64,000 bases of DNA, taken from Odontocerum albicorne (taxonomy: Eukaryota; Arthropoda; Insecta; Trichoptera; Odontoceridae). The stretch lies in the NCBI GenBank assembly GCA_949825065.1, contig OX463849.1:434001-498000 (forward strand), read 5' to 3'. Of the stretch, positions 1-64,000 are shown piece by piece; within the stretch, counting starts at the first letter, position 1, and each line of letters opens with the position of its first letter. Made by a program: the position numbers and the translations under genes. Below the pieces are notes generated by a model, which was not told the DNA's origin, searched no databases, and was given only the letters and a program-made list of their open reading frames with translations.

Positions 1-37
1 ATATTCAAAACCGAGTATCAGTAGTGGATAATACAAG

Positions 38-192
38 TCTACTTAATGTTCAGCATACTTAGCACATATCTACTTAATGTTCAGCATACTTAGCACATAT
101 CTACTTAATGTTCAGCATACTTAGCACATATCTACTTAATGTTCAGCATACTTAGCACATATCTACTTAATGTTCAGCATACTTAGCATATA
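38..192. repeat. 31-bp minisatellite, 5 copies
   Basis: Five head-to-tail copies of a 31-bp AT-rich unit start at 38, 69, 100, 131 and 162. They are almost identical, and the last one degrades at its 3' end. No coding potential is seen. Confidence 0.95.
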
Positions 193-369
193 TCTAGATT
201 ATTTCGAAATAATGACGTATTTCTAACGCAGAATACTTATACTACGAGTATCTTGTATTATATTACAATCTTATATAGAGACAAAATGGTCCGTTAAAGC
301 ATAACTGTTTGTTAGAGATGGGCGTTATGAGTTGAATTAGGAGTAAGAAGGGAATATTGACACAGTTCG

Positions 370-690
370 CAACAGTTGATAGGAACAAATATTATATATG
401 TGAAATGAACGGTGAGGGAGGAAGGGGAAGACCGAGAGGAGAGTGGGATTAAGAAAGGTAAGATGTGTGATAAACATGACAGTATATGTGTGAAGCGAGA
501 GTTATTTGCATGGATAGAAAAAATGTGAAGATATGTACTCTCTGCCTACCCCAAAATGAACGTGGCGTGATGGGGCTCGTTAAAAAAGCTCCGGTGCAAT
601 TCATCAAGTCCATCACGCCGAGAGCTCGCGCCACTGGAGCTGTCTGTAACTTGGATAAATTCTGTTTGATCGAGTACGGGTTTTAACGAA
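370..690 (+). pseudogene. possible 3'-end relic of a LINE-type ORF
   Basis: The + strand translation around 486-580 contains CEARVICMDRKNVK followed by CLPQN and a GVM motif. This resembles the relic at 23.5-23.85 kb (DEAKVVCLDRQTW then CLPTP), and both resemble the distal part of insect Jockey/CR1-like ORF2 as I remember it. The frame is short and has no recognisable reverse-transcriptase motifs, so this is only a family resemblance between two places in the window. Positions 193-370 hold nothing recognisable. Confidence 0.3.
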
Positions 691-772
691 GTTTAATTTG
701 ATCCGAAGAAACAATAAAATATGGCCACCCCATCCCATCCCATACCTGCGTGCGCGTGCGCGTGCCGGGCAC

Positions 773-1188
773 CTTACTCGTGCGAGAAGCTCTGCCGGCC
801 TGGACACGGGGCTTCACTTCACTCGTACGAGTAGCTCTGCCGGCCTGGACACGGGGCTTCACTTCACTCGTACGAGTAGCTCTGCCGGCCTGGACACGGG
901 GCTTCACTTCACTCGTACGAGTAGCTCTGCCGGCCTGGACACGGGGCTTCACTTCACTCGTACGAGTAGCTCTGCCGGCCTGGACACGGGGCTTCACTTC
1001 ACTCGTACGAGTAGCTCTGCCGGCCTGGACACGGGGCTTCACTTCACTCGTACGAGTAGCTCTGCCGGCCTGGACACGGGGCTTCACTTCACTCGTACGA
1101 GTAGCTCTGCCGGCCTGGACACGGGGCTTCACTTCACTCGTACGAGTAACTCTGCCGGCCTGGACACGGGGCTTCATTCTACTCGTAA
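773..1188. repeat. 45-bp GC-rich minisatellite, 9 copies
   Basis: Nine copies of a 45-bp unit run with a constant period (the CTCTGCCGGCCTGGACAC core is at 790, 835 and so on to 1150). Internal units carry the 12-bp perfect palindrome ACTCGTACGAGT. The first and last units are diverged, as is usual at array edges. Because 45 is a multiple of 3, open frames of 160-196 codons appear on both strands; they are repeat artefacts. Confidence 0.95.
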
Positions 1189-1517
1189 TAGTCGTAAGTA
1201 TCCCCCTCAGTCGCTGTCACTCACATTGTCACGTCGGAATCTCTTTAATTTACAAATCAAATAAATACGCTTCAATTATAATTTACAATCAAGTCCGCCG
1301 GAAAACAGTTGACTGGCGTGGCACAAAGGCGAATAACTAACGAGTAACATACAGTATAGTATCATCATACTCGTGTTATATTGAACTAAGTACCGAGATA
1401 CGGCTCTCCGTATACGAGTATTATCTGTGTATGTTATTATATTATATGATATTATCGAGATACTGTATGTTACTTGTGTGATTGCCAAATACGTATACGT
1501 GGAACACCGCTCGACAA

Positions 1518-1757
1518 ATTTTAACTTTTTGGTTTTTCATTCAAAAACGACAGTATTTACTTTATAGATTTTGGGGAGCTGTATAGGAAACAACAGTCAA
1601 ATTTCTAGAATGACTCTAGTTTACAAAACAAATCGGACATTTACGAGTATGTATGTATTGAATTGTAGATCCATCCTTAATAGTAATAATAAAAGGGCAA
1701 TTTACATAGCGCCATTTAGCGAGCAAACTCTCCTCAAGGGCGCTCTAAATCGGGACT
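1518..1757 (+). repeat. Dispersed repeat family D, copy 1 (5' part)
   Basis: This segment aligns by eye to 37628-37832: a T/A-rich start, then CAACAGTCAAA, TTCTAGAATG, TTGAATTGTAGATCCA, a TAATAATAATAAAA tract and the box ATAGCGCC. The box is followed by an AGAGAGCAAAC-like motif and CTCCTCA. Shorter matches occur at 34.1, 56.7, 61.4 and (reverse) 63.85 kb. The class of element is unknown. Compared with 37.7 kb this copy has extra bases that include a TACGAGTA at about 1644. Confidence 0.7.
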
Positions 1758-1758
1758 A

Positions 1759-1824
1759 AGATGAGAGGAGTGTAAGATGAGAGGAGTGTAAGATGAGAGG
1801 AGTGTAAGATGAGAGGAGTGTAAG
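1759..1824. repeat. 16-bp minisatellite, 4 copies
   Basis: Four tandem copies of AGATGAGAGGAGTGTA directly follow the dispersed-repeat segment, with no sequence difference between copies. Confidence 0.9.
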
Positions 1825-1839
1825 AATAAGAAGGCAGTC

Positions 1840-2728: not shown

Positions 2729-2730
2729 GT

Positions 2731-5080: not shown

Positions 5081-6245
5081 ATATTTATATATTGTTGTTA
5101 TTTTGCCTAAATAAATTAATTGATACATACACGAGTATATCTAATCATTTGAATGTCCATTTGCATGATACCTTTTTTATTATTGATTTCAATAAATTTT
5201 GTCTAAAATCTACCATTTTTGCTTGAAATTGCAAAACAGTACACTGGAGTTACAGATACTCGCGTATGTCATGCAAAAAAATCCGGAGTTGAAAGAGTTT
5301 TAAGGTTCAGAAACTTAAAAGTCTGAATAAATTAGAGCTCGTACATACATATACCACGACAGCCAGGCCCGTGCATGGTCAGACGATGTTACAATTAAAA
5401 TTAGACGATACCGTATGTTTGTATGTAAAATTAGATGATACTCGTACAGTATGTTTGTATTTCGACCAGAACAGAACAGAACAGAAGCAATATGTTACGA
5501 GTAACATAGAAGACTTACTATATGTTAGTATTGTTCAGTATTATGTGTTCTGAAGTGTTTAACATTTAATATCGCGCATTAATTAAGATAAGTTAATTGT
5601 TAATTAATTATTTCAAAAGAAAGGAAAGGAACGGAACAGCCCGGCAGACATTTAGTGACATTTGGGTGCTGACGTAATTTCATACAATATCTAACATACT
5701 ATACTTGGCTATTCTCTTCCTCCGAAAGAAACTTGATAACCGCGCGATAATTATGTTAAATGTTAACATTTCAGAATATTACGGAACAACGCATCTTCTA
5801 TCGGTTCTACTCGTAGCTGTTGCACTACTGAGGATAGATGTATCTTATGTTAACTGTAGCATCGCCTGACCCTACCCCGGTATCTGCTCGTACGAGTACA
5901 CCATTTACCTTGTTCAGCCCGAAAACTTTTAGACCTTAGAGGTTTATAACAAAAAAACAGGTATCTATTAAAACTTAATTGTGAAATTCGCCCACTGCGA
6001 CGATTTTCCGGTCGCCGTTAATCACGGGTAAGTGAACACCTACTGTAAACATTTGCAGGAAGTAAGATACGAGTAGATACCGAAATGTTTGCCCGACACT
6101 TGGAACACATTGAAGCTGTTAGAGAAGATGGATGTCACGGTCATGCGGTAAGGGCCACCTGAAGTAGCGAATGTGCCGGCAGGCCTGGAGGCACTCGGGG
6201 GGAAAGACAGAAATGCAGAATAAGGAGAACGACGTCATCAAGGGA
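5081..6245. other. No gene recognised
   Basis: The stretch is AT-rich, with a short GAACA repeat near 5469 and single TACTCGTA/TACGAGTA octamers near 5441, 5497, 5807, 5891 and 6067. I see no coding or RNA feature. Positions 6180-6245 lead into the satellite. Confidence 0.5.
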
Positions 6246-9200
6246 GCCGAAGCGCTACAGTAGATATGGCTACTCGTATTAAGCGATACAGTAGATAGGG
6301 ATATACTCGTATAACATGTTTGATAGTTTTGCCACCGAAACTTGTACTTTTTTAAGTGCACTTGAACAGCTGGCACAATTCTTTAGCTTATGCACTGCTT
6401 ATCATTAGTCCATGTAGCACTATTAAGCGATACAGTAGATAGGGATATTAAGCGATACAGTCGATAGGGATATATAACATGTTTGATAGTTTTGCCACCG
6501 AAACTTGTACTTTTTTAAGTGCACTTGAACAGCTGGCACAATTCTTTAGCTTATGCACTGCTTATCATTAGTCCATGTAGCACTATTAAGCGATACAGTA
6601 GATAGGGATATTAAGCGATACAGTCGATAGGGATATACTCGTATAACATGTTTGATAGTTTTGCCACCGAAACTTGTACTTTTTTAAGTGCACTTGAACA
6701 GCTGGCACAATTCTTTAGCTTATGCACTGCTTATCATTAGTCCATGTAGCACTATTAAGCGATACAGTAGATATGGCTACTCGTATTAAGCGATACAGTA
6801 GATAGGGATATACTCGTATAACATGTTTGATAGTTTTGCCACCGAAACTTGTACTTTTTTAAGTGCACTTGAACAGCTGGCACAATTCTTTAGCTTATGC
6901 ACTGCTTATCATTAGTCCATGTAGCACTATTAAGCGATACAGTAGATAGGGATATTAAGCGATACAGTCGATAGGGATATATAACATGTTTGATAGTTTT
7001 GCCACCGAAACTTGTACTTTTTTAAGTGCACTTGAACAGCTGGCACAATTCTTTAGCTTATGCACTGCTTATCATTAGTCCATGTAGCACTATTAAGCGA
7101 TACAGTAGATAGGGATATTAAGCGATACAGTCGATAGGGATATACTCGTATAACATGTTTGATAGTTTTGCCACCGAAACTTGTACTTTTTTAAGTGCAC
7201 TTGAACAGCTGGCACAATTCTTTAGCTTATGCACTGCTTATCATTAGTCCATGTAGCACTATTAAGCGATACAGTAGATAGGGATATTAAGCGATACAGT
7301 CGATAGGGATATACTCGTATAACATGTTTGATAGTTTTGCCACCGAAACTTGTACTTTTTTAAGTGCACTTGAACAGCTGGCACAATTCTTTAGCTTATG
7401 CACTGCTTATCATTAGTCCATGTAGCACTATTAAGCGATACAGTAGATAGGGATATTAAGCGATACAGTCGATAGGGATATACTCGTATAACATGTTTGA
7501 TAGTTTTGCCACCGAAACTTGTACTTTTTTAAGTGCACTTGAACAGCTGGCACAATTCTTTAGCTTATGCACTGCTTATCATTAGTCCATGTAGCACTAT
7601 TAAGCGATACAGTAGATAGGGATATTAAGCGATACAGTCGATAGGGATATACTCGTATAACATGTTTGATAGTTTTGCCACCGAAACTTGTACTTTTTTA
7701 AGTGCACTTGAACAGCTGGCACAATTCTTTAGCTTATGCACTGCTTATCATTAGTCCATGTAGCACTATTAAGCGATACAGTAGATAGGGATATTAAGCG
7801 ATACAGTCGATAGGGATATATAACATGTTTGATAGTTTTGCCACCGAAACTTGTACATTTTTAAGTGCACTTGAACAGCTGGCACAATTCTTTAGCTTAT
7901 GCACTGCTTATCATTAGTCCATGTAGCACTATTAAGCGATACAGTAGATAGGGATATTAAGCGATACAGTCGATAGGGATATACTCGTATAACATGTTTG
8001 ATAGTTTTGCCACCGAAACTTGTACTTTTTTAAGTGCACTTGAACAGCTGGCACAATTCTTTAGCTTATGCACTGCTTATCATTAGTCCATGTAGCACTA
8101 TTAAGCGATACAGTAGATAGGGATATTAAGCGATACAGTCGATAGGGATATATAACATGTTTGATAGTTTTGCCACCGAAACTTGTACTTTTTTAAGTGC
8201 ACTTGAACAGCTGGCACAATTCTTTAGCTTATGCACTGCTTATCATTAGTCCATGTAGCACTATTAAGCGATACAGTAGATAGGGATATTAAGCGATACA
8301 GTCGATAGGGATATATAACATGTTTGATAGTTTTGCCACCGAAACTTGTACTTTTTTAAGTGCACTTGAACAGCTGGCACAATTCTTTAGCTTATGCACT
8401 GCTTATCATTAGTCCATGTAGCACTATTAAGCGATACAGTAGATAGGGATATTAAGCGATACAGTCGATAGGGATATACTCGTATAACATGTTTGATAGT
8501 TTTGCCACCGAAACTTGTACTTTTTTAAGTGCACTTGAACAGCTGGCACAATTCTTTAGCTTATGCACTGCTTATCATTAGTCCATGTAGCACTATTAAG
8601 CGATACAGTAGATAGGGATATTAAGCGATACAGTAGATAGGGATATACTCGTATAACATGTTTGATAGTTTTGCCACCGAAACTTGTACATTTTTAAGTG
8701 CACTTGAACAGCTGGCACAATTCTTTAGCTTATGCACTGCTTATCATTAGTCCATGTAGCACTATTAAGCGATACAGTAGATAGGGATATTAAGCGATAC
8801 AGTCGATAGGGATATACTCGTATAACATGTTTGATAGTTTTGCCACCGAAACTTGTACTTTTTTAAGTGCACTTGAACAGCTGGCACAATTCTTTAGCTT
8901 ATGCACTGCTTATCATTAGTCCATGTAGCACTATTAAGCGATACAGTAGATAGGGATATTAAGCGATACAGTCGATAGGGATATATAACATGTTTGATAG
9001 TTTTGCCACCGAAACTTGTACTTTTTTAAGTGCACTTGAACAGCTGGCACAATTCTTTAGCTTATGCACTGCTTATCATTAGTCCATGTAGCACTATTAA
9101 GCGATACAGTAGATAGGGATATTAAGCGATACAGTCGATAGGGATATATAACATGTTTGATAGTTTTGCCACCGAAACTTGTACTTTTTTAAGTGCACTT

Positions 9201-12200
9201 GAACAGCTGGCACAATTCTTTAGCTTATGCACTGCTTATCATTAGTCCATGTAGCACTATTAAGCGATACAGTAGATAGGGATATTAAGCGATACAGTCG
9301 ATAGGGATATACTCGTATAACATGTTTGATAGTTTTGCCACCGAAACTTGTACTTTTTTAAGTGCACTTGAACAGCTGGCACAATTCTTTAGCTTATGCA
9401 CTGCTTATCATTAGTCCATGTAGCACTATTAAGCGATACAGTAGATAGGGATATTAAGCGATACAGTCGATAGGGATATACTCGTATAACATGTTTGATA
9501 GTTTTGCCACCGAAACTTGTACTTTTTTAAGTGCACTTGAACAGCTGGCACAATTCTTTAGCTTATGCACTGCTTATCATTAGTCCATGTAGCACTATTA
9601 AGCGATACAGTAGATAGGGATATTAAGCGATACAGTCGATAGGGATATACTCGTATAACATGTTTGATAGTTTTGCCACCGAAACTTGTACTTTTTTAAG
9701 TGCACTTGAACAGCTGGCACAATTCTTTAGCTTATGCACTGCTTATCATTAGTCCATGTAGCACTATTAAGCGATACAGTAGATAGGGATATTAAGCGAT
9801 ACAGTCGATAGGGATATATAACATGTTTGATAGTTTTGCCACCGAAACTTGTACTTTTTTAAGTGCACTTGAACAGCTGGCACAATTCTTTAGCTTATGC
9901 ACTGCTTATCATTAGTCCATGTAGCACTATTAAGCGATACAGTAGATAGGGATATTAAGCGATACAGTCGATAGGGATATACTCGTATAACATGTTTGAT
10001 AGTTTTGCCACCGAAACTTGTACTTTTTTAAGTGCACTTGAACAGCTGGCACAATTCTTTAGCTTATGCACTGCTTATCATTAGTCCATGTAGCACTATT
10101 AAGCGATACAGTAGATAGGGATATTAAGCGATACAGTCGATAGGGATATACTCGTATAACATGTTTGATAGTTTTGCCACCGAAACTTGTACTTTTTTAA
10201 GTGCACTTGAACAGCTGGCACAATTCTTTAGCTTATGCACTGCTTATCATTAGTCCATGTAGCACTATTAAGCGATACAGTAGATAGGGATATTAAGCGA
10301 TACAGTCGATAGGGATATACTCGTATAACATGTTTGATAGTTTTGCCACCGAAACTTGTACTTTTTTAAGTGCACTTGAACAGCTGGCACAATTCTTTAG
10401 CTTATGCACTGCTTATCATTAGTCCATGTAGCACTATTAAGCGATACAGTAGATAGGGATATTAAGCGATACAGTCGATAGGGATATACTCGTATAACAT
10501 GTTTGATAGTTTTGCCACCGAAACTTGTACTTTTTTAAGTGCACTTGAACAGCTGGCACAATTCTTTAGCTTATGCACTGCTTATCATTAGTCCATGTAG
10601 CACTATTAAGCGATTCAGTAGATAGGGATATTAAGCGATACAGTCGATAGGGATATATAACATGTTTGATAGTTTTGCCACCGAAACTTGTACTTTTTTA
10701 AGTGCACTTGAACAGCTGGCACAATTCTTTAGCTTATGCACTGCTTATCATTAGTCCATGTAGCACTATTAAGCGATACAGTAGATAGGGATATTAAGCG
10801 ATACAGTCGATAGGGATATACTCGTATAACATGTTTGATAGTTTTGCCACCGAAACTTGTACTTTTTTAAGTGCACTTGAACAGCTGGCACAATTCTTTA
10901 GCTTATGCACTGCTTATCATTAGTCCATGTAGCACTATTAAGCGATACAGTAGATAGGGATATTAAGCGATACAGTCGATAGGGATATACTCGTATAACA
11001 TGTTTGATAGTTTTGCCACCGAAACTTGTACTTTTTTAAGTGCACTTGAACAGCTGGCACAATTCTTTAGCTTATGCACTGCTTATCATTAGTCCATGTA
11101 GCACTATTAAGCGATACAGTAGATAGGGATATTAAGCGATACAGTCGATAGGGATATACTCGTATAACATGTTTGATAGTTTTGCCACCGAAACTTGTAC
11201 TTTTTTAAGTGCACTTGAACAGCTGGCACAATTCTTTAGCTTATGCACTGCTTATCATTAGTCCATGTAGCACTATTAAGCGATACAGTAGATAGGGATA
11301 TTAAGCGATACAGTCGATAGGGATATACTCGTATAACATGTTTGATAGTTTTGCCACCGAAACTTGTACTTTTTTAAGTGCACTTGAACAGCTGGCACAA
11401 TTCTTTAGCTTATGCACTGCTTATCATTAGTCCATGTAGCACTATTAAGCGATACAGTAGATAGGGATATTAAGCGATACAGTCGATAGGGATATATAAC
11501 ATGTTTGATAGTTTTGCCACCGAAACTTGTACTTTTTTAAGTGCACTTGAACAGCTGGCACAATTCTTTAGCTTATGCACTGCTTATCATTAGTCCATGT
11601 AGCACTATTAAGCGATACAGTAGATAGGGATATTAAGCGATACAGTCGATAGGGATATACTCGTATAACATGTTTGATAGTTTTGCCACCGAAACTTGTA
11701 CTTTTTTAAGTGCACTTGAACAGCTGGCACAATTCTTTAGCTTATGCACTGCTTATCATTAGTCCATGTAGCACTATTAAGCGATACAGTAGATAGGGAT
11801 ATTAAGCGATACAGTCGATAGGGATATACTCGTATAACATGTTTGATAGTTTTGCCACCGAAACTTGTACTTTTTTAAGTGCACTTGAACAGCTGGCACA
11901 ATTCTTTAGCTTATGCACTGCTTATCATTAGTCCATGTAGCACTATTAAGCGATACAGTAGATAGGGATATTAAGCGATACAGTCGATAGGGATATACTC
12001 GTATAACATGTTTGATAGTTTTGCCACCGAAACTTGTACTTTTTTAAGTGCACTTGTTAAGCTGGCACAATTCTTTAGCTTATGCACTGCTTATCATTAG
12101 TCCATGTAGCACTATTAAGCGATACAGTAGATAGGGATATTAAGCGATACAGTCGATAGGGATATACTCGTATAACATGTTTGATAGTTTTGCCACCGAA

Positions 12201-15200
12201 ACTTGTACTTTTTTAAGTGCACTTGAACAGCTGGCACAATTCTTTAGCTTATGCACTGCTTATCATTAGTCCATGTAGCACTATTAAGCGATACAGTAGA
12301 TAGGGATATTAAGCGATACAGTCGATAGGGATATATAACATGTTTGATAGTTTTGCCACCGAAACTTGTACTTTTTTAAGTGCACTTGAACAGCTGGCAC
12401 AATTCTTTAGCTTATGCACTGCTTATCATTAGTCCATGTAGCACTATTAAGCGATACAGTAGATAGGGATATTAAGCGATACAGTCGATAGGGATATATA
12501 ACATGTTTGATAGTTTTGCCACCGAAACTTGTACTTTTTTAAGTGCACTTGAACAGCTGGCACAATTCTTTAGCTTATGCACTGCTTATCATTAGTCCAT
12601 GTAGCACTATTAAGCGATACAGTAGATAGGGATATTAAGCGATACAGTCGATAGGGATATACTCGTATAACATGTTTGATAGTTTTGCCACCGAAACTTG
12701 TACTTTTTTAAGTGCACTTGAACAGCTGGCACAATTCTTTAGCTTATGCACTGCTTATCATTAGTCCATGTAGCACTATTAAGCGATACAGTAGATAGGG
12801 ATATTAAGCGATACAGTAGATAGGGATATACTCGTATAACATGTTTGATAGTTTTGCCACCGAAACTTGTACATTTTTAAGTGCACTTGAACAGCTGGCA
12901 CAATTCTTTAGCTTATGCACTGCTTATCATTAGTCCATGTAGCACTATTAAGCGATACAGTAGATAGGGATATTAAGCGATACAGTCGATAGGGATATAC
13001 TCGTATAACATGTTTGATAGTTTTGCCACCGAAACTTGTACTTTTTTAAGTGCACTTGAACAGCTGGCACAATTCTTTAGCTTATGCACTGCTTATCATT
13101 AGTCCATGTAGCACTATTAAGCGATACAGTAGATAGGGATATTAAGCGATACAGTCGATAGGGATATATAACATGTTTGATAGTTTTGCCACCGAAACTT
13201 GTACTTTTTTAAGTGCACTTGAACAGCTGGCACAATTCTTTAGCTTATGCACTGCTTATCATTAGTCCATGTAGCACTATTAAGCGATACAGTAGATAGG
13301 GATATTAAGCGATACAGTCGATAGGGATATATAACATGTTTGATAGTTTTGCCACCGAAACTTGTACTTTTTTAAGTGCACTTGAACAGCTGGCACAATT
13401 CTTTAGCTTATGCACTGCTTATCATTAGTCCATGTAGCACTATTAAGCGATACAGTAGATAGGGATATTAAGCGATACAGTCGATAGGGATATACTCGTA
13501 TAACATGTTTGATAGTTTTGCCACCGAAACTTGTACTTTTTTAAGTGCACTTGAACAGCTGGCACAATTCTTTAGCTTATGCACTGCTTATCATTAGTCC
13601 ATGTAGCACTATTAAGCGATACAGTAGATAGGGATATTAAGCGATACAGTCGATAGGGATATACTCGTATAACATGTTTGATAGTTTTGCCACCGAAACT
13701 TGTACTTTTTTAAGTGCACTTGAACAGCTGGCACAATTCTTTAGCTTATGCACTGCTTATCATTAGTCCATGTAGCACTATTAAGCGATACAGTAGATAG
13801 GGATATTAAGCGATACAGTCGATAGGGATATATAACATGTTTGATAGTTTTGCCACCGAAACTTGTACATTTTTAAGTGCACTTGAACAGCTGGCACAAT
13901 TCTTTAGCTTATGCACTGCTTATCATTAGTCCATGTAGCACTATTAAGCGATACAGTAGATAGGGATATTAAGCGATACAGTCGATAGGGATATATAACA
14001 TGTTTGATAGTTTTGCCACCGAAACTTGTACTTTTTTAAGTGCACTTGAACAGCTGGCACAATTCTTTAGCTTATGCACTGCTTATCATTAGTCCATGTA
14101 GCACTATTAAGCGATACAGTAGATAGGGATATTAAGCGATACAGTCGATAGGGATATATAACATGTTTGATAGTTTTGCCACCGAAACTTGTACTTTTTT
14201 AAGTGCACTTGAACAGCTGGCACAATTCTTTAGCTTATGCACTGCTTATCATTAGTCCATGTAGCACTATTAAGCGATACAGTAGATAGGGATATTAAGC
14301 GATACAGTCGATAGGGATATACTCGTATAACATGTTTGATAGTTTTGCCACCGAAACTTGTACTTTTTTAAGTGCACTTGAACAGCTGGCACAATTCTTT
14401 AGCTTATGCACTGCTTATCATTAGTCCATGTAGCACTATTAAGCGATACAGTAGATAGGGATATTAAGCGATACAGTCGATAGGGATATACTCGTATAAC
14501 ATGTTTGATAGTTTTGCCACCGAAACTTGTACTTTTTTAAGTGCACTTGAACAGCTGGCACAATTCTTTAGCTTATGCACTGCTTATCATTAGTCCATGT
14601 AGCACTATTAAGCGATACAGTAGATAGGGATATTAAGCGATACAGTCGATAGGGATATATAACATGTTTGATAGTTTTGCCACCGAAACTTGTACTTTTT
14701 TAAGTGCACTTGAACAGCTGGCACAATTCTTTAGCTTATGCACTGCTTATCATTAGTCCATGTAGCACTATTAAGCGATACAGTAGATAGGGATATTAAG
14801 CGATACAGTCGATAGGGATATACTCGTATAACATGTTTGATAGTTTTGCCACCGAAACTTGTACTTTTTTAAGTGCACTTGAACAGCTGGCACAATTCTT
14901 TAGCTTATGCACTGCTTATCATTAGTCCATGTAGCACTATTAAGCGATACAGTAGATAGGGATATTAAGCGATACAGTCGATAGGGATATACTCGTATAA
15001 CATGTTTGATAGTTTTGCCACCGAAACTTGTACTTTTTTAAGTGCACTTGAACAGCTGGCACAATTCTTTAGCTTATGCACTGCTTATCATTAGTCCATG
15101 TAGCACTATTAAGCGATACAGTAGATAGGGATATTAAGCGATACAGTCGATAGGGATATACTCGTATAACATGTTTGATAGTTTTGCCACCGAAACTTGT

Positions 15201-18052
15201 ACTTTTTTAAGTGCACTTGAACAGCTGGCACAATTCTTTAGCTTATGCACTGCTTATCATTAGTCCATGTAGCACTATTAAGCGATACAGTAGATAGGGA
15301 TATTAAGCGATACAGTCGATAGGGATATACTCGTATAACATGTTTGATAGTTTTGCCACCGAAACTTGTACTTTTTTAAGTGCACTTGAACAGCTGGCAC
15401 AATTCTTTAGCTTATGCACTGCTTATCATTAGTCCATGTAGCACTATTAAGCGATACAGTAGATAGGGATATTAAGCGATACAGTCGATAGGGATATACT
15501 CGTATAACATGTTTGATAGTTTTGCCACCGAAACTTGTACTTTTTTAAGTGCACTTGAACAGCTGGCACAATTCTTTAGCTTATGCACTGCTTATCATTA
15601 GTCCATGTAGCACTATTAAGCGATACAGTAGATAGGGATATTAAGCGATACAGTCGATAGGGATATACTCGTATAACATGTTTGATAGTTTTGCCACCGA
15701 AACTTGTACATTTTTAAGTGCACTTGAACAGCTGGCACAATTCTTTAGCTTATGCACTGCTTATCATTAGTCCATGTAGCACTATTAAGCGATACAGTAG
15801 ATAGGGATATTAAGCGATACAGTCGATAGGGATATATAACATGTTTGATAGTTTTGCCACCGAAACTTGTACTTTTTTAAGTGCACTTGAACAGCTGGCA
15901 CAATTCTTTAGCTTATGCACTGCTTATCATTAGTCCATGTAGCACTATTAAGCGATACAGTAGATAGGGATATTAAGCGATACAGTCGATAGGGATATAT
16001 AACATGTTTGATAGTTTTGCCACCGAAACTTGTACTTTTTTAAGTGCACTTGAACAGCTGGCACAATTCTTTAGCTTATGCACTGCTTATCATTAGTCCA
16101 TGTAGCACTATTAAGCGATACAGTAGATAGGGATATTAAGCGATACAGTCGATAGGGATATACTCGTATAACATGTTTGATAGTTTTGCCACCGAAACTT
16201 GTACTTTTTTAAGTGCACTTGAACAGCTGGCACAATTCTTTAGCTTATGCACTGCTTATCATTAGTCCATGTAGCACTATTAAGCGATACAGTAGATAGG
16301 GATATTAAGCGATACAGTCGATAGGAATATACTCGTATAACATGTTTGATAGTTTTGCCACCGAAACTTGTACTTTTTTAAGTGCACTTGAACAGCTGGC
16401 ACAATTCTTTAGCTTATGCACTGCTTATCATTAGTCCATGTAGCACTATTAAGCGATACAGTAGATAGGGATATTAAGCGATACAGTCGATAGGGATATA
16501 CTCGTATAACATGTTTGATAGTTTTGCCACCGAAACTTGTACTTTTTTAAGTGCACTTGAACAGCTGGCACAATTCTTTAGCTTATGCACTGCTTATCAT
16601 TAGTCCATGTAGCACTATTAAGCGATACAGTAGATAGGGATATTAAGCGATACAGTCGATAGGGATATATAACATGTTTGATAGTTTTGCCACCGAAACT
16701 TGTACATTTTTAAGTGCACTTGAACAGCTGGCACAATTCTTTAGCTTATGCACTGCTTATCATTAGTCCATGTAGCACTATTAAGCGATACAGTAGATAG
16801 GGATATTAAGCGATACAGTCGATAGGGATATATAACATGTTTGATAGTTTTGCCACCGAAACTTGTACTTTTTTAAGTGCACTTGAACAGCTGGCACAAT
16901 TCTTTAGCTTATGCACTGCTTATCATTAGTCCATGTAGCACTATTAAGCGATACAGTAGATAGGGATATTAAGCGATACAGTCGATAGGGATATACTCGT
17001 ATAACATGTTTGATAGTTTTGCCACCGAAACTTGTACTTTTTTAAGTGCACTTGAACAGCTGGCACAATTCTTTAGCTTATGCACTGCTTATCATTAGTC
17101 CATGTAGCACTATTAAGCGATACAGTAGATAGGGATATTAAGCGATACAGTCGATAGGGATATATAACATGTTTGATAGTTTTGCCACCGAAACTTGTAC
17201 ATTTTTAAGTGCACTTGAACAGCTGGCACAATTCTTTAGCTTATGCACTGCTTATCATTAGTCCATGTAGCACTATTAAGCGATACAGTAGATAGGGATA
17301 TTAAGCGATACAGTCGATAGGGATATATAACATGTTTGATAGTTTTGCCACCGAAACTTGTACTTTTTTAAGTGCACTTGAACAGCTGGCACAATTCTTT
17401 AGCTTATGCACTGCTTATCATTAGTCCATGTAGCACTATTAAGCGATACAGTAGATAGGGATATTAAGCGATACAGTCGATAGGGATATACTCGTATAAC
17501 ATGTTTGATAGTTTTGCCACCGAAACTTGTACTTTTTTAAGTGCACTTGAACAGCTGGCACAATTCTTTAGCTTATGCACTGCTTATCATTAGTCCATGT
17601 AGCACTATTAAGCGATACAGTAGATAGGGATATTAAGCGATACAGTCGATAGGGATATATAACATGTTTGATAGTTTTGCCACCGAAACTTGTACATTTT
17701 TAAGTGCACTTGAACAGCTGGCACAATTCTTTAGCTTATGCACTGCTTATCATTAGTCCATGTAGCACTATTAAGCGATACAGTAGATAGGGATATTAAG
17801 CGATACAGTCGATAGGGATATATAACATGTTTGATAGTTTTGCCACCGAAACTTGTACTTTTTTAAGTGCACTTGTTAAGCTGGCACAATTCTTTAGCTT
17901 ATGCACTGCTTATCATTAGTCCATGTAGCACTATTAAGCGATACAGTAGATAGGGATATTAAGCGATACAGTCGATAGGGATATATAACATGTTTGATAG
18001 TTTTGCCACCGAAACTTGTACATTTTTAAGTGCACTTGAACAGCTGGCACAA
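6246..18052. repeat. 163/169-bp satellite array, 71 full units
   Basis: I followed the AACATGTTTGATAG landmark from 6313 to 17987 and found 71 occurrences. Units are 163 bp, or 169 bp when GGGATATATAACATG is replaced by GGGATATACTCGTATAACATG. Of the 71, 44 carry the extra CTCGTA and 27 do not; the unit ending at about 6820 has a second hexamer. Then 43x169 + 27x163 + 6 = 11674, exactly the observed distance, so no other indel exists in the array. Linked substitutions (TTGTACATTTTT, TTGTTAAGCTGG, CAGTAGAT for CAGTCGAT) recur, pointing to multi-unit duplication. Each unit also holds an internal near-duplicate, TTAAGCGATACAGT. The length is close to that of many nucleosome-sized satellites; a centromeric or heterochromatic role is possible but not shown. 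Confidence 0.98.
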
Positions 18053-18440: not shown

Positions 18441-19091
18441 TTATTCGTTAGGAAGAATATCAGCCAGGATCCTTATCATACTGCTAGGCGGTACCGAGAA
18501 TATATCAACAGTGTCATTCAGTTGGTTCAATATCTCTATACCACGCGTGACTGAGTGTTTAGCCATGATATTCCTCCTGTAAGTTGGTATGTAGAACAGA
18601 GGGTGATTCCTTGCACGACTATATTTATTAGGTACATATAAACTTAGTACTTCTAGAATCGCGGGACAGTTAAAGCAACCTTGGAGAACCTTTATTAGGA
18701 ATATCGCAATGGAATCTTGCCTTCTTGTTTCGAGGCTTCTATAGTTACTCATCGTGAGAAGTTCGACATGGTGAGCATATTTTGGGTGACCGCCCTTTGT
18801 TCTGTACCATACTCGTAGATATCTGAGGATTTTTTTTGTATTTGTTCCATATTGTTTTTATATTTGAGCTGGTGAGGAGCCCAAACTGTAGATGTATATT
18901 CTAATTTGGTTCTTATTAGTTAATTATATAAGTTTCGAAGGTTATCGGTATTTTCTTGATATTTTCATTATAAAACCGAGTAGTTTGTAACAGTCCGATA
19001 TCAAACGTGAGACATGGTTAATGAATGTGAGTCCGACATCAAAGGTTACGCCCAAATTGTTGAATTCAAAAACTCTGTCTAATGCTAATCC

Positions 19092-19643
19092 CTGTACGAG
19101 TATAGTATACTGATGGTGGATTGGTGAGAATGAATTCCTGTACGAGTATAGTATACTGATGGTGGATTGGTGACAACGAATCCCTGTACGAGTATAGTAT
19201 ACTGATGGTGGATTGGTGACAACGAATCCCTGTACGAGTATAGTATACTGATGGTGGATTGGTGACAACGAATCCCTGTACGAGTATAGTATACTGATGG
19301 TGGATTGGTGACAACGAATCCCTGTACGAGTATAGTATACTGATGGTGGATTGGTGACAACGAATCCCTGTACGAGTAAAGTATACTGATGGTGGATTGG
19401 TGACAACGAATCCCTGTACGAGTATAGTATACTGATGGTGGATTGGTGACAACGAATCCCTGTACGAGTATAGTATACTGATGGTGGATTGGTGACAACG
19501 AATCCCTGTACGAGTATAGTATACTGATGGTGGATTGGTGACAACGAATCCCTGTACGAGTATAGTATACTGATGGTGGATTGGTGACAACGAATCCCTG
19601 TACGAGTATAGTATACTGACGGTTGATAGGTGGCAACGATCGA
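19092..19643. repeat. 46-bp minisatellite x 12 inside the RT relic
   Basis: CTGTACGAGTATAGTATACT starts at 19092 and then every 46 bp to 19598. The array lies between the RT segment ending CVCVSYSRSLPPIN and the segment starting LALDRVFEFNN, so it was amplified in place from RT coding sequence. Every unit contains TACGAGTA. With the 6 bp removed, the reverse strand would read straight through as QYTIQG. Forty-six is not a multiple of 3, yet all three frames are open, which creates spurious long ORFs. Confidence 0.95.
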
Positions 19644-24843: not shown

Positions 24844-24844
24844 A

Positions 24845-25795: not shown

Positions 25796-25796
25796 T

Positions 25797-26470: not shown

Positions 26471-26689
26471 TATAGTTCGGAAATTCTAGGATGAGTCCTG
26501 TGACAGCTCACAAATTTGCCCCAATACAACCTTGTAACGATGTTCAGTAATTTGAATTATTTTATTAACTTTAATATAAGCCTCAATTCTAATAAATAGC
26601 AAGTTATTTAGGTAAATACATTACATAAGGTTGTATTGGTGCAAATTTGTGAGCTGTCACAGGACTCATCCTAGAATTTCCGAACTATA
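26471..26689. mobile_element. MITE with about 60-bp terminal inverted repeats, TA flanks
   Basis: TAGTTCGGAAATTCTAGGAT on the left is mirrored by ATCCTAGAATTTCCGAACTA on the right. The arms extend for about 60 bp with one obvious mismatch (TTTGCCCC/TTTGCACC). A TA lies outside each arm (26471-26472 and 26688-26689). About 90 bp of AT-rich sequence separates the arms, and there is no ORF. TA duplication and structure suggest a Tc1/mariner-superfamily non-autonomous element, but its ends match neither mariner in this window. Confidence 0.88.
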
Positions 26690-27444: not shown

Positions 27445-27643
27445 TATCGGTCATATACTCGTATTGTATCATTCAGGAAATATCGGTCATATACTCGTAT
27501 TGTATCATTCAGGAAATATCGGTCATATACTCGTATTGTATCATTCAGGAAATACGAGTATCGGTCATATACTCGTATCATTCAGGAAATACGAGTATCG
27601 GTCATATACTCGTATTGTATCATTCAGGAGATACGAGTATCAG
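27445..27643. repeat. 36-bp array with variable hexamer insertion
   Basis: The TATCGG landmark falls at 27445, 27481, 27517, 27559 and 27596, with a last diverged unit at 27638. Steps are 36, 36, 42, 37 and 42. The step from 36 to 42 is exactly the extra CGAGTA in AGGAAATACGAGTATCGG compared with AGGAAATATCGG. The 37 combines this with a 5-bp loss of TGTAT. Every unit also holds a constant TACTCGTA. Confidence 0.93.
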
Positions 27644-37627: not shown

Positions 37628-38480
37628 TAATCATTTTTTATTTTTTATTAAAAAAACGAAAGTATATTTATTTCATAGATTTAGAAACAACAGTCAAAAT
37701 TCTAGAATGGCTCTTATTTATAAAACTGTCTTGAATTGTAGATCCACCCTTAATAATAATAATAATAATAAAAAGGCAATTTATATAGCGCCGTTGAGAG
37801 AGCAGACACTCCTCAGGGACGGTCTCGCTTGGTAATCGAACCCACTATTATTGAGAGATTAAAAAATAAATAAATACCAGATAGTGGCTGCGCTGCGGTT
37901 ACTCGTATTATTGTAGTCTTCATATATTTATTGTAGAAAAACAGATTTGGTAAGCAAACCGCAGAAAATTTACCAAGGAAGACGAACTACAAAGAAGCCT
38001 CCGTAGATCTTTCGTTATGTGATAGTAACACATTCGGTTTTATGTGTAGTGTTGTGCATGCGTATACCCAGCCCAAATGAATCGATTTGGAACATCCAAT
38101 TGATTAGATGTAAACCAATTAAAGCCTTACTGGCTTACTGGCTTACTGGCTTAGTGGCTTACTGGCTTACTGGCATTGAGGCTAACAACGGTATCGTGAG
38201 GAATCAATCGTATAGGTATACAGAAACATCAAATCTAATCAACTACTATACTTCTTTCTGAGAGTTTAAGCTCTCTTGGATTCATTCGGAATAATATATT
38301 TATACAATAAAGATAAATCGAACTCAAAGTGTTCTCCTCCTTGAAGCAACATCTCAGACATGTATCCGAAATATGGCATGTTACATAATACAATGGAGAT
38401 ATTCCAATAAGAGACTTCAATATAAAGAAACAAATACTCGTAGACACTTTAGCCGTTTTAGAAGCGGACTTACACTACCA
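37628..38480 (+). repeat. Dispersed repeat family D, copy 3
   Basis: This copy carries, in the same order, the 5' module also seen at 1.5 kb (TTGAATTGTAGATCCACCCT, ATAGCGCCG, CAGACACTCCTCAGGG), the CCCACTATTATTGAGAGATT module, GTGGCTGCG, ACAGATTTGGTAAGCAAACC, TCTTTCGTTATGTGATAGTA, and the ACAATGGAGATATTCCAATA phrase near 38392. A TACTGGCT-type 9-bp repeat lies at 38128-38175. At 37900-37907 GGTTACTCGTATTATT replaces the GGTTATTAG of copy 2, a clean 6-bp insertion. A second octamer near 38433 lies in the possible coding tail (ADLHYHK then stop). Confidence 0.65.
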
Positions 38481-46113: not shown

Positions 46114-47400
46114 TTAGGTCCTTACATATGAAATTGGCGTTTTGCCGTACTGGCAACTTTGATCTCAAATATCTTCTCTTTGGTTAGGAATTCCAAATTA
46201 AAATTTATACAGCTATTTACTCAAGTATTTGTGTTTCGAAAATTATAATTCATTTGTTTTTTCCTCAATTGTTTTTTTTCTTTGCGTCACTCAGTTTACA
46301 AAATGGAAAACTTGAAATATCGCGTTATTTACGAGTACGAGTTCCACCGTGGCACCAGTGCTGCAGAAACGGCTCGAAGGATTAATGATGTGTATGGCGA
46401 CGGTGCCGCAAAAGAAAACACAGTGCGTTTTTGGTTCCAACGTTTTCGTTCTGGAAATTTCGACCTGCAGAAAAAGCCCCGTGGACGGCCGGAGACCAAA
46501 GTTGATAATGAAGAATTGAAGGCTATTGTGGAAGCGGATCCATCGCAAACCACGTCCGAGTTAGCTGCAGGCTGCGGTGTTAGTGATAAAACTGTTTTAA
46601 TCCACTTGAAGCAAATTGGGAAGGTGAAAAAGCTTGAAAGGTGGGTACCTCACGAATTGAGTGAAGCAAATCAACAAACGCGCGTTGACTGCTGCGTTGC
46701 ATTACTCAACCGGCACAATAATGAAGGGATTTTGAATCGAATCATTACCTGTGATGAAAAGTGGATCCTGTATGATAATCGGAAGCGCTCATCGCAATGG
46801 CTGAACCCTGCCGAACCAGCCAAACCATGCCCCAAGCGAAAATTGACTCCAAAAAAGTTACTTGTGAGCGTTTGGTGGACTAGTGCTGGTGTCGTTCACT
46901 ACAGCTTTCTTAAATCTGGCCAGACGATTACGGCAGATGTCTATTGTCAGCAACTGCAAACCATGATGGAAAAGCTAGCTGCTAAACAACCGAGGCTGGT
47001 TAATCGCTCTAGGCCACTGCTGCTTCATGATAACGCTAGACCACACACTGCACAACAGACGGCTACCAAATTAGAAGAGCTTCAATTGGAATGTCTAAGA
47101 CATCCACCGTACTCTCCGGACCTTGCCCCAACAGATTACTATTTTTTTCGAAATTTGGATAACTTCTTGCAAGGGAAAAAATTCAACTCCGATGGGGCAG
47201 TCCAAACCGACTTCAAAGATTTTATTGATTCCCGTCCGAATGGTTTTTTTAGTAAAGGGATCGATGAACTACCTATGAGATGGCAAAAGTGCATAGATAG
47301 CAATGGTACATACTTTGATTAAATAAATATATTATATTAAAAAAAAATCAACTTTATGTTCCTCCCAAACAAAACGCCAATTTCATATGTAAGGACCTAA
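46114..47400 (+). mobile_element. Full-length mariner (cecropia-type), 1287 bp
   Basis: The terminal inverted repeats are perfect over 31 bp, starting TTAGGTCCTTACATATGAAA at 46114 and mirrored at 47370-47400. A TA target duplication lies at 46112-46113 and 47401-47402. One intact transposase gene fills the interior. Length, TA target and gene are canonical for the family. This is the only mobile element in the window that looks complete and recent. Confidence 0.97.
46303..47322 (+). CDS. Mariner transposase, intact, 339 aa
   Basis: This enzyme binds the element's terminal repeats, excises it and reinserts it at TA. The ATG at 46303 (MENLKYR) is preferred; the frame is open a few codons further up but has no ATG there. 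Residues 1-110 form the two helix-turn-helix DNA-binding units separated by a GRPET AT-hook-like motif (61-65). The linker motif WVPHEL is at 114-119. The catalytic triad is D151 (ITCDEKW), D243 (LLLHDNARPH) and D278 (LAPTDYYFF), with 34 residues between the last two, the DD34D signature. PPYSPDL is at 268-274, and the protein ends SNGTYFD before TAA. Length matches the usual 340-350 aa, and no frameshift or lost key residue is seen. Activity is plausible but not shown. A TACGAGTACGAG near codon 10 encodes a YEYEF stretch that is, as far as I remember, normal for the family. Confidence 0.97.
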   Translation: MENLKYRVIYEYEFHRGTSAAETARRINDVYGDGAAKENTVRFWFQRFRSGNFDLQKKPRGRPETKVDNEELKAIVEADPSQTTSELAAGCGVSDKTVLIHLKQIGKVKKLERWVPHELSEANQQTRVDCCVALLNRHNNEGILNRIITCDEKWILYDNRKRSSQWLNPAEPAKPCPKRKLTPKKLLVSVWWTSAGVVHYSFLKSGQTITADVYCQQLQTMMEKLAAKQPRLVNRSRPLLLHDNARPHTAQQTATKLEELQLECLRHPPYSPDLAPTDYYFFRNLDNFLQGKKFNSDGAVQTDFKDFIDSRPNGFFSKGIDELPMRWQKCIDSNGTYFD

Positions 47401-47402
47401 TA

Positions 47403-48078: not shown

Positions 48079-48094
48079 ATTATATTGTATTGTA

Positions 48095-48650: not shown

Positions 48651-48653
48651 TAC

Positions 48654-48851: not shown

Positions 48852-50005
48852 CATCATACGGTATGCAGACAGAACAGATCTCCACTACTTAACGCGCATC
48901 TTTAAATTTTGTCACGTACCCGACCCGTGGCAGGGATTATACAATAATATGTGATATAATGATTATATCTTTAACACTTTTAACATACGAGTATGTCTTC
49001 CCCGTTTCTGAGTTTCTGAATTTCTAAATTGGAGTGTTCCTTTCTTCGTCCTTCTCAAACTTCTCGTAACTTCTTCCTTATTCACTTTTACTTTTGCTAA
49101 AATGTTTAAATATGTACTCATTCTTTATATAATACTTTATACGAGTACATACTCGTACCATAGTCATATAATCTCAATGTTCCTTTCATCATCTTTGACG
49201 GTATACTCGTATGATACACCTATCTTCATTTCCCATTTTGTTTAATGATCTCGCCCCTTACTTTCCATTGCTTTTCTACAGATTTGATCGCTTAGTGGGC
49301 AAATGTAAGATTTGCTGGTATATTGTTAGGTTGGAACCGAAATGGAACCGAGAGTGAAGTATGGGCAGCTTTTCATCTCTGGAAATACAATACTTCAGTC
49401 GTTAAATATATTGTAATATATTGTAGACCTTGACATTTCCTATGTTGTTCTTTTTTCAGCATTCTCGCATTTGGACCCCGCAGGACCATAAAACTCTCTC
49501 ATGGTGAAGGTGCAGGAAAAATATCCGCGATATATCTGTATTAGTGAGTAGTGAGTTGGAGTCTGGTATATATCCATGGCTTTATCCCACTTACTTTCTA
49601 CTGGTCACGATTGGATACAATTCCTTGAGCTTGCCAAAAAATCTACGGCTATATGTGGTCAGACATGTTCTCGTGTGTTGTCCAGAATGACTACGAGTAG
49701 AAAGACTAGCGTTAATATTTTTAACAATTACACTAGACTGCGCCGGCAGGGACTTTTCTCAATCACATACACAAAAACGGCTCTCTTGTTGCGGTGCTTT
49801 AACTATGCCGAGAATCATAAATAATTAAACCCGACACCCCCGAGTCGAAAAACACCAGCGTCAGAGGTTATCACGTCACACGTCTCAGTGGAAATACTAG
49901 TATATGTAACATAAACTATTATATTGTATTAAAAGTGAATGTATACCTTTACTCAAGTTGACAATGAAAGTGGAAGAAATCGTTCTTTTGAAAATGTAAA
50001 TATTC
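48852..50005. other. No gene recognised
   Basis: AT-rich DNA with octamers near 48987, 49140, 49149 (an inverted pair two bases apart), 49202 and 49691. Open frames stay below 85 codons and none has a recognisable domain. Confidence 0.4.
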
Positions 50006-50009
50006 ATTA

Positions 50010-61500: not shown

Positions 61501-61569
61501 GTGACTCGAACCGACTGCGGGCTTACCATATTTCAAGAGGACATTTCTTCAAGCAATCAAAAATATGTT

Positions 61570-61652
61570 AAAGAGAGACATACATACCATCACGCCATCT
61601 CCAGTATTCTTCTAAAGAGAGACATACTCGTACATACCATCACGCCATCTCC
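61570..61652. repeat. Direct duplication differing by one hexamer
   Basis: Copy 1 (61570-61602, 33 bp) and copy 2 (61614-61652, 39 bp) are identical except that AGACATACATACC becomes AGACATACTCGTACATACC. The extra CTCGTA is at 61627-61632. On the reverse strand this is LINE-tail-like sequence (GGAGATGGCGTGATGGTATG). Confidence 0.95.
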
Positions 61653-61699
61653 CTGTCGGGGCAGACAATCTTCTAAGTGTACGCATTTCTACAGAATTT

Positions 61700-62514
61700 A
61701 TTCGACTCTTTTCAGACTTGTTTCACGTCCACGTTTCACTCTCCTACACCAAAATTGTTACTAAAATACTGTTAAATAGACCTTAAGTGTTTTTAAAAAT
61801 ACAGGGAGAAATGTGTGTATGGAGAGAAAAACATATGGAAACCGAACAAAGTTGATTGTTCTATTTCCTCGCTATAACCGAGTCGGTCTGTTCTAGTCAA
61901 TATAATATAATAGGAGTACATCCGCGGGACTAGATGACTAGACCCGCTCCCTGAAGACAGCGACAGATCTCAGCGGCCGCGGGAAATGCGCTACTATAGA
62001 TAAACGCGCACAAATGCGATCGTTCACTGCCGAGGAATGCCGTCATTTCTCAAAACATCGCATCGCTGGTCATAAAACTCGCAACTTATCTCTGCATTCA
62101 TTTCATTCAACATTCATCGAATACTATATTTCTTCATTTATATTTATCAATCAATTTTCTTAATAAAACGAGAACAATCATTGCAAAATAAATATTGGCT
62201 TATTTCGACTAACAAGACACCCCAACAGTCCTTTCTAGGAATTGTAGAGGGTGGTCTACACTAAGGGTTGATTCACGTGACATGGTACAAACTCCGTACT
62301 GCAGAATATCTGACGAAATAATAATCAACAATCGGTACAAAGCATCGACAATATTTTCAAATTCCTTCATCTAAGCTACAAGTACTATATAATTGTTTAC
62401 TGGGATCGAGACAAGACAAGACGAGACAAATGGCAGGCTGTTAACAAACCCAGATACAAGTAATGTTATCAGAGAGTGTCCACTTGAAATTGCATTTATT
62501 TTGTCTGTCTTATT
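61700..62514. other. No gene recognised
   Basis: AT-rich and mixed sequence with no coding or RNA feature that I can support. Confidence 0.4.
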
Positions 62515-62850
62515 AATACTCCCCAGGCGGGAGCTACTCTTTAATTAATAATCCCCATTCAATACTCCCCAGGTGGGAACTGCTCTTTAATTAATACTCC
62601 CCATTGAATACTCCCCAGGCGGGAGCTACTCTTTAATTAATAATCCTCATTGAATACTCCCCAGGCGGGAACTGCTCTTTAATTAATACTCCCCATTGAA
62701 TACTCCCCAGGCGGGAACGGTTTTTTAATGAATACTCTCCATTGAATACTCCCCAAGCGGGAACTGCAGTTTAATCAATACTCCCAAGACGGGAACTGCT
62801 CTTTAATGAATATTCTCCATTGAATACTCCCCAGACGGGAACTGGTCTTT
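62515..62850. repeat. Irregular about 46-57-bp tandem repeat
   Basis: About seven copies of AATACTCCCCAGGCGGGAAC followed by TGCTCTTTAATTAATACTCC and CCATTG, with internal losses. Confidence 0.88.
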
Positions 62851-62922
62851 AATGAAATTATAATATTTATGCGCCGAGGAGTCCAAACTATTTTCCGCAT
62901 TCGTCACCAACACCACACGTTA

Positions 62923-63690
62923 AAGCGGGGATCCCCAAACTTTTTAAGAATAGGGCCATATAAGAGTATTGACATTGCTAAGTGGGCCGGATTAAAAAAA
63001 TATTCACATGGAAAACTATCATACATCATTTTAACAATAATTAAAACTCTAATAATTGCAATATATACTCGTAGTATAACTAAACGAATATTTCTTTCTT
63101 AATCATGACATAAATATTTTATAAACTATTCAAATAAAAGTAATATTCAGATATTTCAATTCGCCACCGGCATTCAAATATTTTTCTATGAGAACTATGG
63201 GCTTGTTGCTTTGTTGCCAGAACTACCTTTACGAGTATTACGAGTAAGTGTTAAATCAGAAACGCCTATTTTAAAAAAATCTTGCAAATGATAATCGTTT
63301 AAACTTAGCGGATTTTTTATTTAATGTGTTTCTTCGTGGAAAATGATTGCTCGCAAATGTACGCACTCCCGAATATGGAAATCATTTTTCTTGCAAAATT
63401 CTTAATATAACTACTCGTATATTTCCTTCTGGCAAGAAATAATAAAACTCAATCAAGTTTTCATATTTAAATAACAATTTTAGCGAATTATTTTATAACA
63501 AATCTATAAATTCTATAATAGTTGCATATTTACATCAACATCAACATCAACGTCCTCGGCAACAATCTCGAAAAGATTTTGAAATAAAATAAATGTAAAA
63601 ATCTTTGAATAGCTCATTTAGCTCATTTTGTAGCGATGACATTTTCTCAATGCAATTTTGATCTCCGTGTTAAAGTATCAATCCTCATTC
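62923..63690 (-). pseudogene. hAT-superfamily transposase relic
   Basis: On the reverse strand from about 63650: SSLQNELNELFKDFYIYF, LLFKYENLIEFYYFLPEGN, then NFARKMIS followed by an FGSAYICEQSFSTKKHIK stretch (63385-63320) and LQDFFKIGVSDLTL. The FGS-xY-CEQ-FS segment is the hallmark of the hAT C-terminal dimerisation region. The putative outer end near 62923 (GGGGATCCCCAAACTTTTTA, GGGCCATA, GTGGGCCGG) resembles termini of this hAT group as I remember them. Stops and frame changes make it inactive, and the N-terminal zinc finger and catalytic part are absent. Three CTCGTA/CGAGTA hexamers lie in it (63230-63246 two, 63412-63419 one). Confidence 0.7.
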
Positions 63691-63837
63691 GATCTGACGC
63701 CTTTATTGTCCAGTATATGTTTCTGATTCATTTCATAATTTCATATAAAGAAAGTCTTGCTATTGACCGCAGCCCCCTTCCTAACCTAGCACTCAACTAA
63801 TTTATATTTATTTGGTAACATTTTGAATCTGTCAATA

Positions 63838-63935
63838 ACAGTGGGCTTGGAGCCCGAATTAGGGCGCCCTTGAGAAAAGTTAGCTCTCTGAACGGCGCGC
63901 GGCGTCCTTTTATAATTATTATTAACTTCATCATA
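63838..63935 (-). repeat. Dispersed repeat family D, reverse copy at window edge
   Basis: Reverse strand reads TAATAATAATTATAAAAGGA, CGCCGCGCGCCGTTCAGAGA, GCTAACTTTTCTCAAGGGCG, then TAATTCGGGCTCCAAGCCCACTG and TTATTGACAG. This is the order of the D boxes at 34.4-34.55 kb. Confidence 0.6.
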
Positions 63936-64000
63936 AAATCGACGTTTTCCCATAAAATCAGTTTTGTTAAGTAGCGAGGATCGCCCTAAGAGTAGCTGGA

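Follow-up and report, generated by a model that had tools for sequence, protein, structure and literature searches.

A TA-CTCG-TA octamer in the genome of Odontocerum albicorne as the probable excision footprint of a mariner family

The octamer in the window

A stretch of 64,000 nucleotides from the trichopteran Odontocerum albicorne (contig OX463849.1, positions 434,001 to 498,000), referred to throughout as the window, contains 152 copies (94 + 58) of the octamer TACTCGTA/TACGAGTA, in which the four nucleotides CTCG, or CGAG, stand between two TA dinucleotides. It is the commonest octamer of the window, and 64 of the 152 copies lie outside six tandem-array intervals, close to the 60 or so that an initial annotation had estimated by eye. 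The evidence set out below suggests, with a rough probability of 0.87, that TA-CTCG-TA and TA-CGAG-TA are the excision footprint of one family of mariner transposons, called here the parent family, whose ends read TA-CGAG...CTCG-TA. Sequences were compared within a 204-kb sample, composed of the window and 14 other 10-kb stretches of the same genome that were taken 0.5, 1 or 3 Mb from the beginning of a contig; they do not sample the genome at random. L-numbers (L001 etc.) designate sampled loci elsewhere in the genome. The sites and arrays of the window that bear on the argument were the following.

5439..5446, plus strand: candidate octamer footprint, with a TA-only partner within the window
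6271..6278, plus strand: candidate octamer footprint, with TA in 68 partner copies of the same array
6277..18052, no strand: 163/169-bp satellite; after GATAGGGA, TATACTCGTATAACATG in 43 copies and TATATAACATG in 27 copies
18810..18817, plus strand: candidate octamer footprint, with a TA-only partner in L011
22931..22944, minus strand: putative serial footprint TACTCGTACTCGTA (TACGAGTACGAGTA on the plus strand), a second event in the TA of the first octamer
26544..26628, minus strand: copy of a dispersed repeat with an empty TA (TGTAATG-TA-TTTACCT)
27445..27641, no strand: short tandem array with octamers, TACGAGTA at 27553 and 27590 versus TA in partner units
37900..37907, plus strand: octamer in a dispersed repeat (D of the initial annotation)
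46330..46337, minus strand: octamer within an unrelated mariner's reading frame, TACGAGTACGAG = Tyr-Glu-Tyr-Glu
49692..49699, minus strand: octamer with a 6-bp-shorter partner in L007, weak at 79.5% identity
61625..61632, plus strand: candidate octamer footprint, with a TA-only partner repeat copy within the window

Units of the satellite at 6277..18052 differ by 6 bp at one TA, and the scar would have been amplified together with the array. The octamer at 46330..46337 is probably background and no footprint. The site at 22931 was the only serial insertion among the loci examined up to then.

The octamer was found within the unit of several tandem arrays (776-1187, 6277-18052, 19087-19639, 24305-24844, 25793-26155 and 27445-27641), and the scars may mark or accompany the birth of arrays. 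Locus L010 (C10:500001-510000) is largely a satellite with 37-bp spacing (TATAAAGCCCGCTA...) and has 0 octamers.

The length difference between partner copies

Flanks of 14 + 14 bp were matched with at most 2 mismatches per side. A partner copy without the octamer was found at 10 independent loci, and in 10/10 exactly TA stood in its place. Six are in the window, at 5439, 6271, 6304 (the satellite family), 18810, 27553 and 61625, and four outside it, at L003:218, L007:787, L012:5559 and L013:4770. The initial annotation had held that close copies differ by exactly 6 bp, TA becoming TA-CTCG-TA, and these loci agree with it. Three of its examples, the 163-bp satellite and the sites at 27.5 kb and 61.6 kb, were borne out; the fourth, at 37900, had no partner among the compared sequences.

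When 3,074 TANNNNTA sites were treated in the same way, a TA-only partner was found for 19 distinct flank sets. Of these, 11 had the core CGAG/CTCG (the satellite site accounting for two, in different versions), 2 had ATAA, and the remaining cores occurred once each. The contrast of 11/115 octamers with 8/2,839 other sites gave p=1e-11, a rough value whose denominators were counted differently. Other gap lengths were also recorded: 3 and 13 at 27.5 kb, where a separate 5-bp difference (TATTGTATC versus TATC) adjoins the octamer difference in the array 27445..27641; 14 and 18, both of which contain the octamer itself; and 22-44, which were taken for register shifts in tandem units. Some partners had substitutions instead of a length change (TGCTCGTA, TACTCGAA, TACTAGTA and TTCTCGTA).

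A BLAST comparison with 60-bp flanks covered 116 sites and gave spanning partners at 18: a 6-bp gap at 7, substitutions at 3, octamer partners only at 3 and an unclear result at 5 (L002:2051, L007:6482, L009:1792, window 52621 and window 1642, all at no more than 79% identity). One of the seven 6-bp sites, window 49692, was new but is the weak match at 79.5% identity.

Among the matches listed, partner differences with the core C were variants inside the parent mariner, and those with CA and CAA were mostly satellite variants, mariner-internal variants and low complexity. Three loci, L002:7729 and L004:1781 (CA) and L007:5124 (CAA), had apparently real differences of 4 or 5 bp (TA versus TA-TG-TA or TA-CAA-TA); other Tc1/mariner elements could have left them as footprints.

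Abundance

The initial annotation had proposed a genome-wide count against a control. In the 1.287-Gb genome (1241 contigs) the octamer occurred 381,502 times (190,749 + 190,753), compared with 30,151 (15,070 + 15,081) for the reversed control, an excess of 351,351 with array copies included. In the 204-kb sample, 233 raw octamers were reduced to 115 with distinct flanks, 14x the 8.2 expected from a second-order Markov model, and a motif carried merely by satellites was rejected on this number. The 14 stretches without the window had 81 raw and 53 flank-distinct octamers. Since the individual 10-kb stretches held 0 to 18, the sites are clumped.

Among the remaining TANNNNTA cores that had 5 or more flank-distinct sites, none exceeded 1.84x its expectation in the 204 kb. 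Footprint versions of 2, 3, 5 and 6 nucleotides likewise showed no excess when flank-distinct counts were compared with the Markov expectation, as listed here together with the alternative cores.

TACGTA, alternative footprint: 30 flank-distinct, 57.3 expected
TACGATA, alternative footprint: 20 flank-distinct, 42.1 expected
TACGAGGTA, alternative footprint: 2 flank-distinct, 1.4 expected
TACGAGGCTA, alternative footprint: 0 flank-distinct, 0.2 expected
TACGCGTA, alternative footprint: 0 flank-distinct, 2.4 expected
TACTAGTA, alternative core: 4 flank-distinct, 3.9 expected
TAATAGTA, alternative core: 12 flank-distinct, 17.4 expected
TACGAGCTCGTA, double-ended footprint: 0 flank-distinct

The 24 one-mismatch variants of the octamer were observed 138 times, versus 103 in the reversed control and 178 under the Markov model, so decay of the octamer looks small, its extent being uncertain. 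A small decay agrees with the parent element copies, which are mostly 2-6% apart. Searches of Rfam (gathering threshold) and for tRNA gave no matches.

The probable parent mariner family

A TA-flanked element with the ends CGAG...CTCG had been predicted in the initial annotation, and an abundant mariner family with TA on both sides was indeed found. A search of the 204 kb for inverted pairs starting with TACGAG (at most 2 of 18 mismatches, a test that misses elements with unlike ends) returned one 935-bp element in L003, the same end being present also in L001 and L012; there were no other such pairs. Genome-wide, the end TACGAGGCATATCCAGAAAGTAAG (at most 2 mismatches) occurred 17,308 times (8,643 + 8,665), against 0 for the control. 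L001, L003 and 29 loci from the genome-wide end searches made up a set of 31 element loci. Both ends could be identified in 27 of them; in the other 4 the second end was not found.

Mariner elements have a total length near 1.3 kb and short terminal inverted repeats. The 27 elements are 763-1271 bp long, mostly internally deleted, with inverted repeats of about 30 bp. The target-site duplication was TA/TA in 26 and TA/TG in one, TA at the first end (within 2 mismatches) being part of the search pattern. That pattern also fixes the A-end as CGAG in all 27; the B-end is CGAG in 13, CTAT in 12 and CTAG in 2. Remains of the transposase match PF01359 (5e-25), HTH_48 (3e-7), Mos1 (1e-15) and SETMAR chains. 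The mariner transposase has a DD34D motif, with 34 residues between the second and third D, and the translation of L018 has HDN...SDY with a spacing of 34 residues.

In a comparison of ten copies, pairwise distances within groups were 2-6%, L020 standing apart at 8-10%. Copies of the CTAT group differed by 11-14% from those of the CGAG group and by 15-16% from L020; the three compared were 2.3-2.6% from one another. Copies with the CTAT B-end are L001, L017, L024, L028, L031, L032, L036 and L040-L044. No older fragments of the parent family were detected by blastn in the 204 kb, and no relatives were found in the viral contigs that were searched.

Another mariner, in the window, has different ends.

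46114-47400, plus strand: mariner with terminal inverted repeat TTAGGTCCTTACATATGAAA, 20/20 terminal bases matching, TA on both sides

Its open transposase frame has HTH_48 and Transposase_1 matches. It appears to be recent and to belong to a different family from the footprint parent; because its ends differ, it was rejected as the source of the octamers. In the sample, three mariners apart from the parent family have ends other than CGAG...CTCG. At window 24850-25790, flanked by two arrays with octamers, is a mariner relic whose protein is 38-40% identical to that of the parent family.

Target sites shared by element and octamer

Two lines of evidence connect the octamer to this family. The first is target preference. 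The 116 octamer sites analysed are symmetric in their preference around TA: position -3 favors A, position -1 favors A or G and seldom has T, and the opposite side is the mirror image (p=2e-14 versus random TA, cross-validated). When the 27 element sites were scored with the octamer matrix, the same preference was obtained (p=1.6e-9). Beyond it, no conservation was seen in the octamer flanks.

The second is a single TA. The joined flanks of the 27 elements were compared with all sampled sequence, and spanning partners were available for 7, of which L017, L020, L024 and L032 had a clean empty site with a single TA. The L020 element sits in a dispersed repeat at TGTAATG-TA-TTTACCT, and five sampled copies of this repeat are empty at that TA. 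At L034 an element is located at the same TA, with only one side matching the repeat. An octamer lies at exactly this TA in 466 genome copies (219 + 247, at most 1 mismatch in 21 bases; control 0). Among 100 of the 466 places listed, a hand count gave 50 CGAG and 50 CTCG; CGCG/CTAG was present in 0, though the pattern admitted both. Six octamer copies were no closer to one another than to the five empty ones (L045 is 3%, and L049 and L050 are 9%, from an empty copy), which argues that octamers arose at that TA repeatedly and were not inherited in one subfamily. Thus, when copies of this dispersed repeat are compared, the same TA is seen empty, occupied and with a footprint. Among the copies read, the left context of the repeat was of two kinds.

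These results bear on the view that the octamer is an ordinary over-represented motif, such as a binding site, coding sequence or satellite component, and that deletion or misassembly accounts for the 6-bp differences. In favor of such a motif, part of the octamers have multiplied within arrays, and one falls inside a coding frame. However, there are 115 flank-distinct sites in 204 kb, the flanks lack conservation beyond the symmetric TA preference, the same 6-bp rule operates in unrelated repeats, and the two orientations were 50:50 among the 100 places listed for one site, so that this view is highly improbable. The initial annotation had also offered a systematic assembly error. This is unlikely because the octamer lies in a mariner target context, is amplified in satellites and has both orientations in equal number at one site.

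Proposed mechanism

By the features tested, the octamer is a Tc1/mariner excision footprint, excision itself being what we infer from sequence comparison. The reading preferred in the initial annotation, excision of a CGAG...CTCG element that leaves 4 bp, is thereby supported by the parent family, the target preference and the three states of one TA.

The mariner duplicates TA on insertion. The further course is proposed from the ends of the family and the known action of Tc1/mariner transposases. On leaving, the second strand would be cut 4 nucleotides inside each end, so that each flank keeps the 3' overhang CGAG. Two such overhangs could pair through the C:G at either outer position, leaving two mismatches in the center; the gap would be closed by end joining and the mismatches resolved as one strand or the other, to give CGAG or CTCG. 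A 4-nt overhang therefore predicts a 4-nt length, equal orientations and no mixtures, all of which were seen in the material examined. Some hundreds of thousands of such germline excisions would have taken place, the scars being inherited and some of them amplified in satellites. Transposase is assumed to have been supplied in trans, because the sampled surviving elements are internally deleted or broken. To judge from the numbers only, end joining would have prevailed over restoration of the element.

Scars per element

Scaled by the flank-distinct proportion of 53/81, the octamer excess is nearer 220,000. The 17,308 ends correspond to between 8,700 and 17,300 elements, a range because only part of the B-ends match the pattern. 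There would then be, very roughly, about 13 to 40 scars per recognisable element; the 204 kb has 3 elements and 115 octamer sites. The ratio may be lower, since more diverged ends were missed.

Discussion

Several observations weigh against excision of the parent family as the source: 1) no before/after pair at one orthologous site was found, 2) the element interior has 0 octamers in 28,550 bp, and the sequence beside the elements 2 in 26,686 bp, where about 10 were expected from the sample in each case, although Poisson p-values for these deficits are too small because the sites are clumped, 3) 14/27 sampled elements (12 CTAT and 2 CTAG) have a B-end other than CGAG, and CTAT copies should leave TAATAGTA, which showed no excess in the 204 kb (12 vs 17.4 expected), 4) 3/7 joined sites were not clean, L015 and L043 being too diverged or simple and L036 being 8 bp longer than its repeat partners, 5) no intact transposase was present in the 31 element loci, the longest stop-free piece having 255 codons, and 6) footprints in assays and in rice are more variable, according to excerpts of the published reports (PMC3770610, PMC9976928, PMC4423477, PMC9632168). 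The scarcity of octamers inside and beside the elements suggests that the resident elements are probably younger than most octamers, and some scars may have been left by CGAG-ended copies, earlier or related ones, that have since disappeared. CTAT-ended copies may excise poorly.

The same scarcity can be taken further, to the proposal that the footprints derive largely from a different, older or lost CGAG-ended mariner family. With 0 octamers inside resident copies, many scars would predate these copies, and the CTAT-ended copies have no matching scar in excess. On the other hand, the 204 kb has no other TACGAG inverted pair (at most 2/18 mismatches, unlike ends being missed) and no older fragments of the parent family by blastn, and the small decay of the octamer (138 vs 103/178) is in line with copies mostly 2-6% apart. 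We regard such an origin as rather unlikely; it would change the parent and not the mechanism, and it overlaps with the explanation favored here.

A further proposal dispenses with excision: the same transposase, or another TA-directed enzyme, would place a 4-bp end fragment directly at TA, the element never having been present. Elements and octamers overlap little, with none in the 28.5 kb of element interior; the octamers outnumber the elements by an order of magnitude, the insert is uniform, and the target preference is compatible with whatever this transposase does. However, excision needs no new assumptions to account for the inserted sequence, its length, the duplicated TA and the two orientations, and the element does occupy the same TA as octamers. 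We know of no enzyme that places a 4-bp transposon-end fragment at TA, and direct micro-insertion seems improbable.

Excision of the parent family may also be conceived as a routine genome process, in which germline removal of the mariner nearly keeps pace with its insertion, through almost error-free rejoining of the 4-nt overhangs; in its extreme form the excision would be programmed, or the scar would arise without any insertion. This is a speculative and unlikely extension. If it were true, there would have been hundreds of thousands of insertions, each with one standard scar, and few surviving elements.

The following comparisons refer to excerpts of the cited papers. In Sleeping Beauty, Mos1, Himar1 and Hsmar1, terminal bases of the element are likewise left between two TAs after insertion at TA and repair of overhangs, and the footprints of these animal Tc1/mariner elements are 2-3 nucleotides (PMC3878927, PMC2642840), whereas here the footprint is 4, with no other length in excess. 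For the Tc1/mariner superfamily a range of 2-4 bp is quoted (PMC7913693), so the 4-nt length is not new as such; the same report describes a palindromic AT target preference for ZB. Plant Osmar5 and Ppmar2 and the pogo element Passer also leave up to 4 nucleotides (PMC9632168, PMC9976928), with 1-4 given in PMC9632168. In those assays, however, a range (1-4 or 0-4) was obtained, in contrast to the single length in an animal germ line here. Non-canonical footprints are reported for Hsmar2 (PMC3770610). Comparisons of rice species, like the present one, recovered germline excisions from genome sequence; 8/94 were 'perfect' and the others had deletions or filler (PMC4423477), unlike the one uniform scar found here, though the octamer count is blind to longer or deleting repair products. 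With some 3.5e5 octamers above control per genome, the scale is unlike that of animal Tc1/mariner footprints. No comparable genome-wide footprint was found in one literature collection by title and abstract; among the titles listed there for the octamer string none was on repeats or transposons, and the inverted-repeat strings gave one paper with an unrelated title.

What is novel is the scale, the uniformity and the number of scars for each element. Scars of transposon excision are generally regarded as scattered and often messy, while this genome would hold a very large and uniform record of them, left by a transposon whose scars far outnumber its copies. One genome would suffice to measure excision, the choice of repair and of target, and the fate of scars by counting, and a question usually put to plasmids could be answered from sequence. 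The scars would also serve, in very large number, as polarised 6-bp insertion markers, and they are a warning that TA-flanked 6-bp insertions and deletions in such genomes are not random mutation.

Other features of the window

On the minus strand, positions 58170-59957 hold an open frame of 595 codons that matches DUF7869. It contains 12 near-identical in-frame units of 126 bp (58249-59765), which form a 42-residue tandem repeat in the protein.

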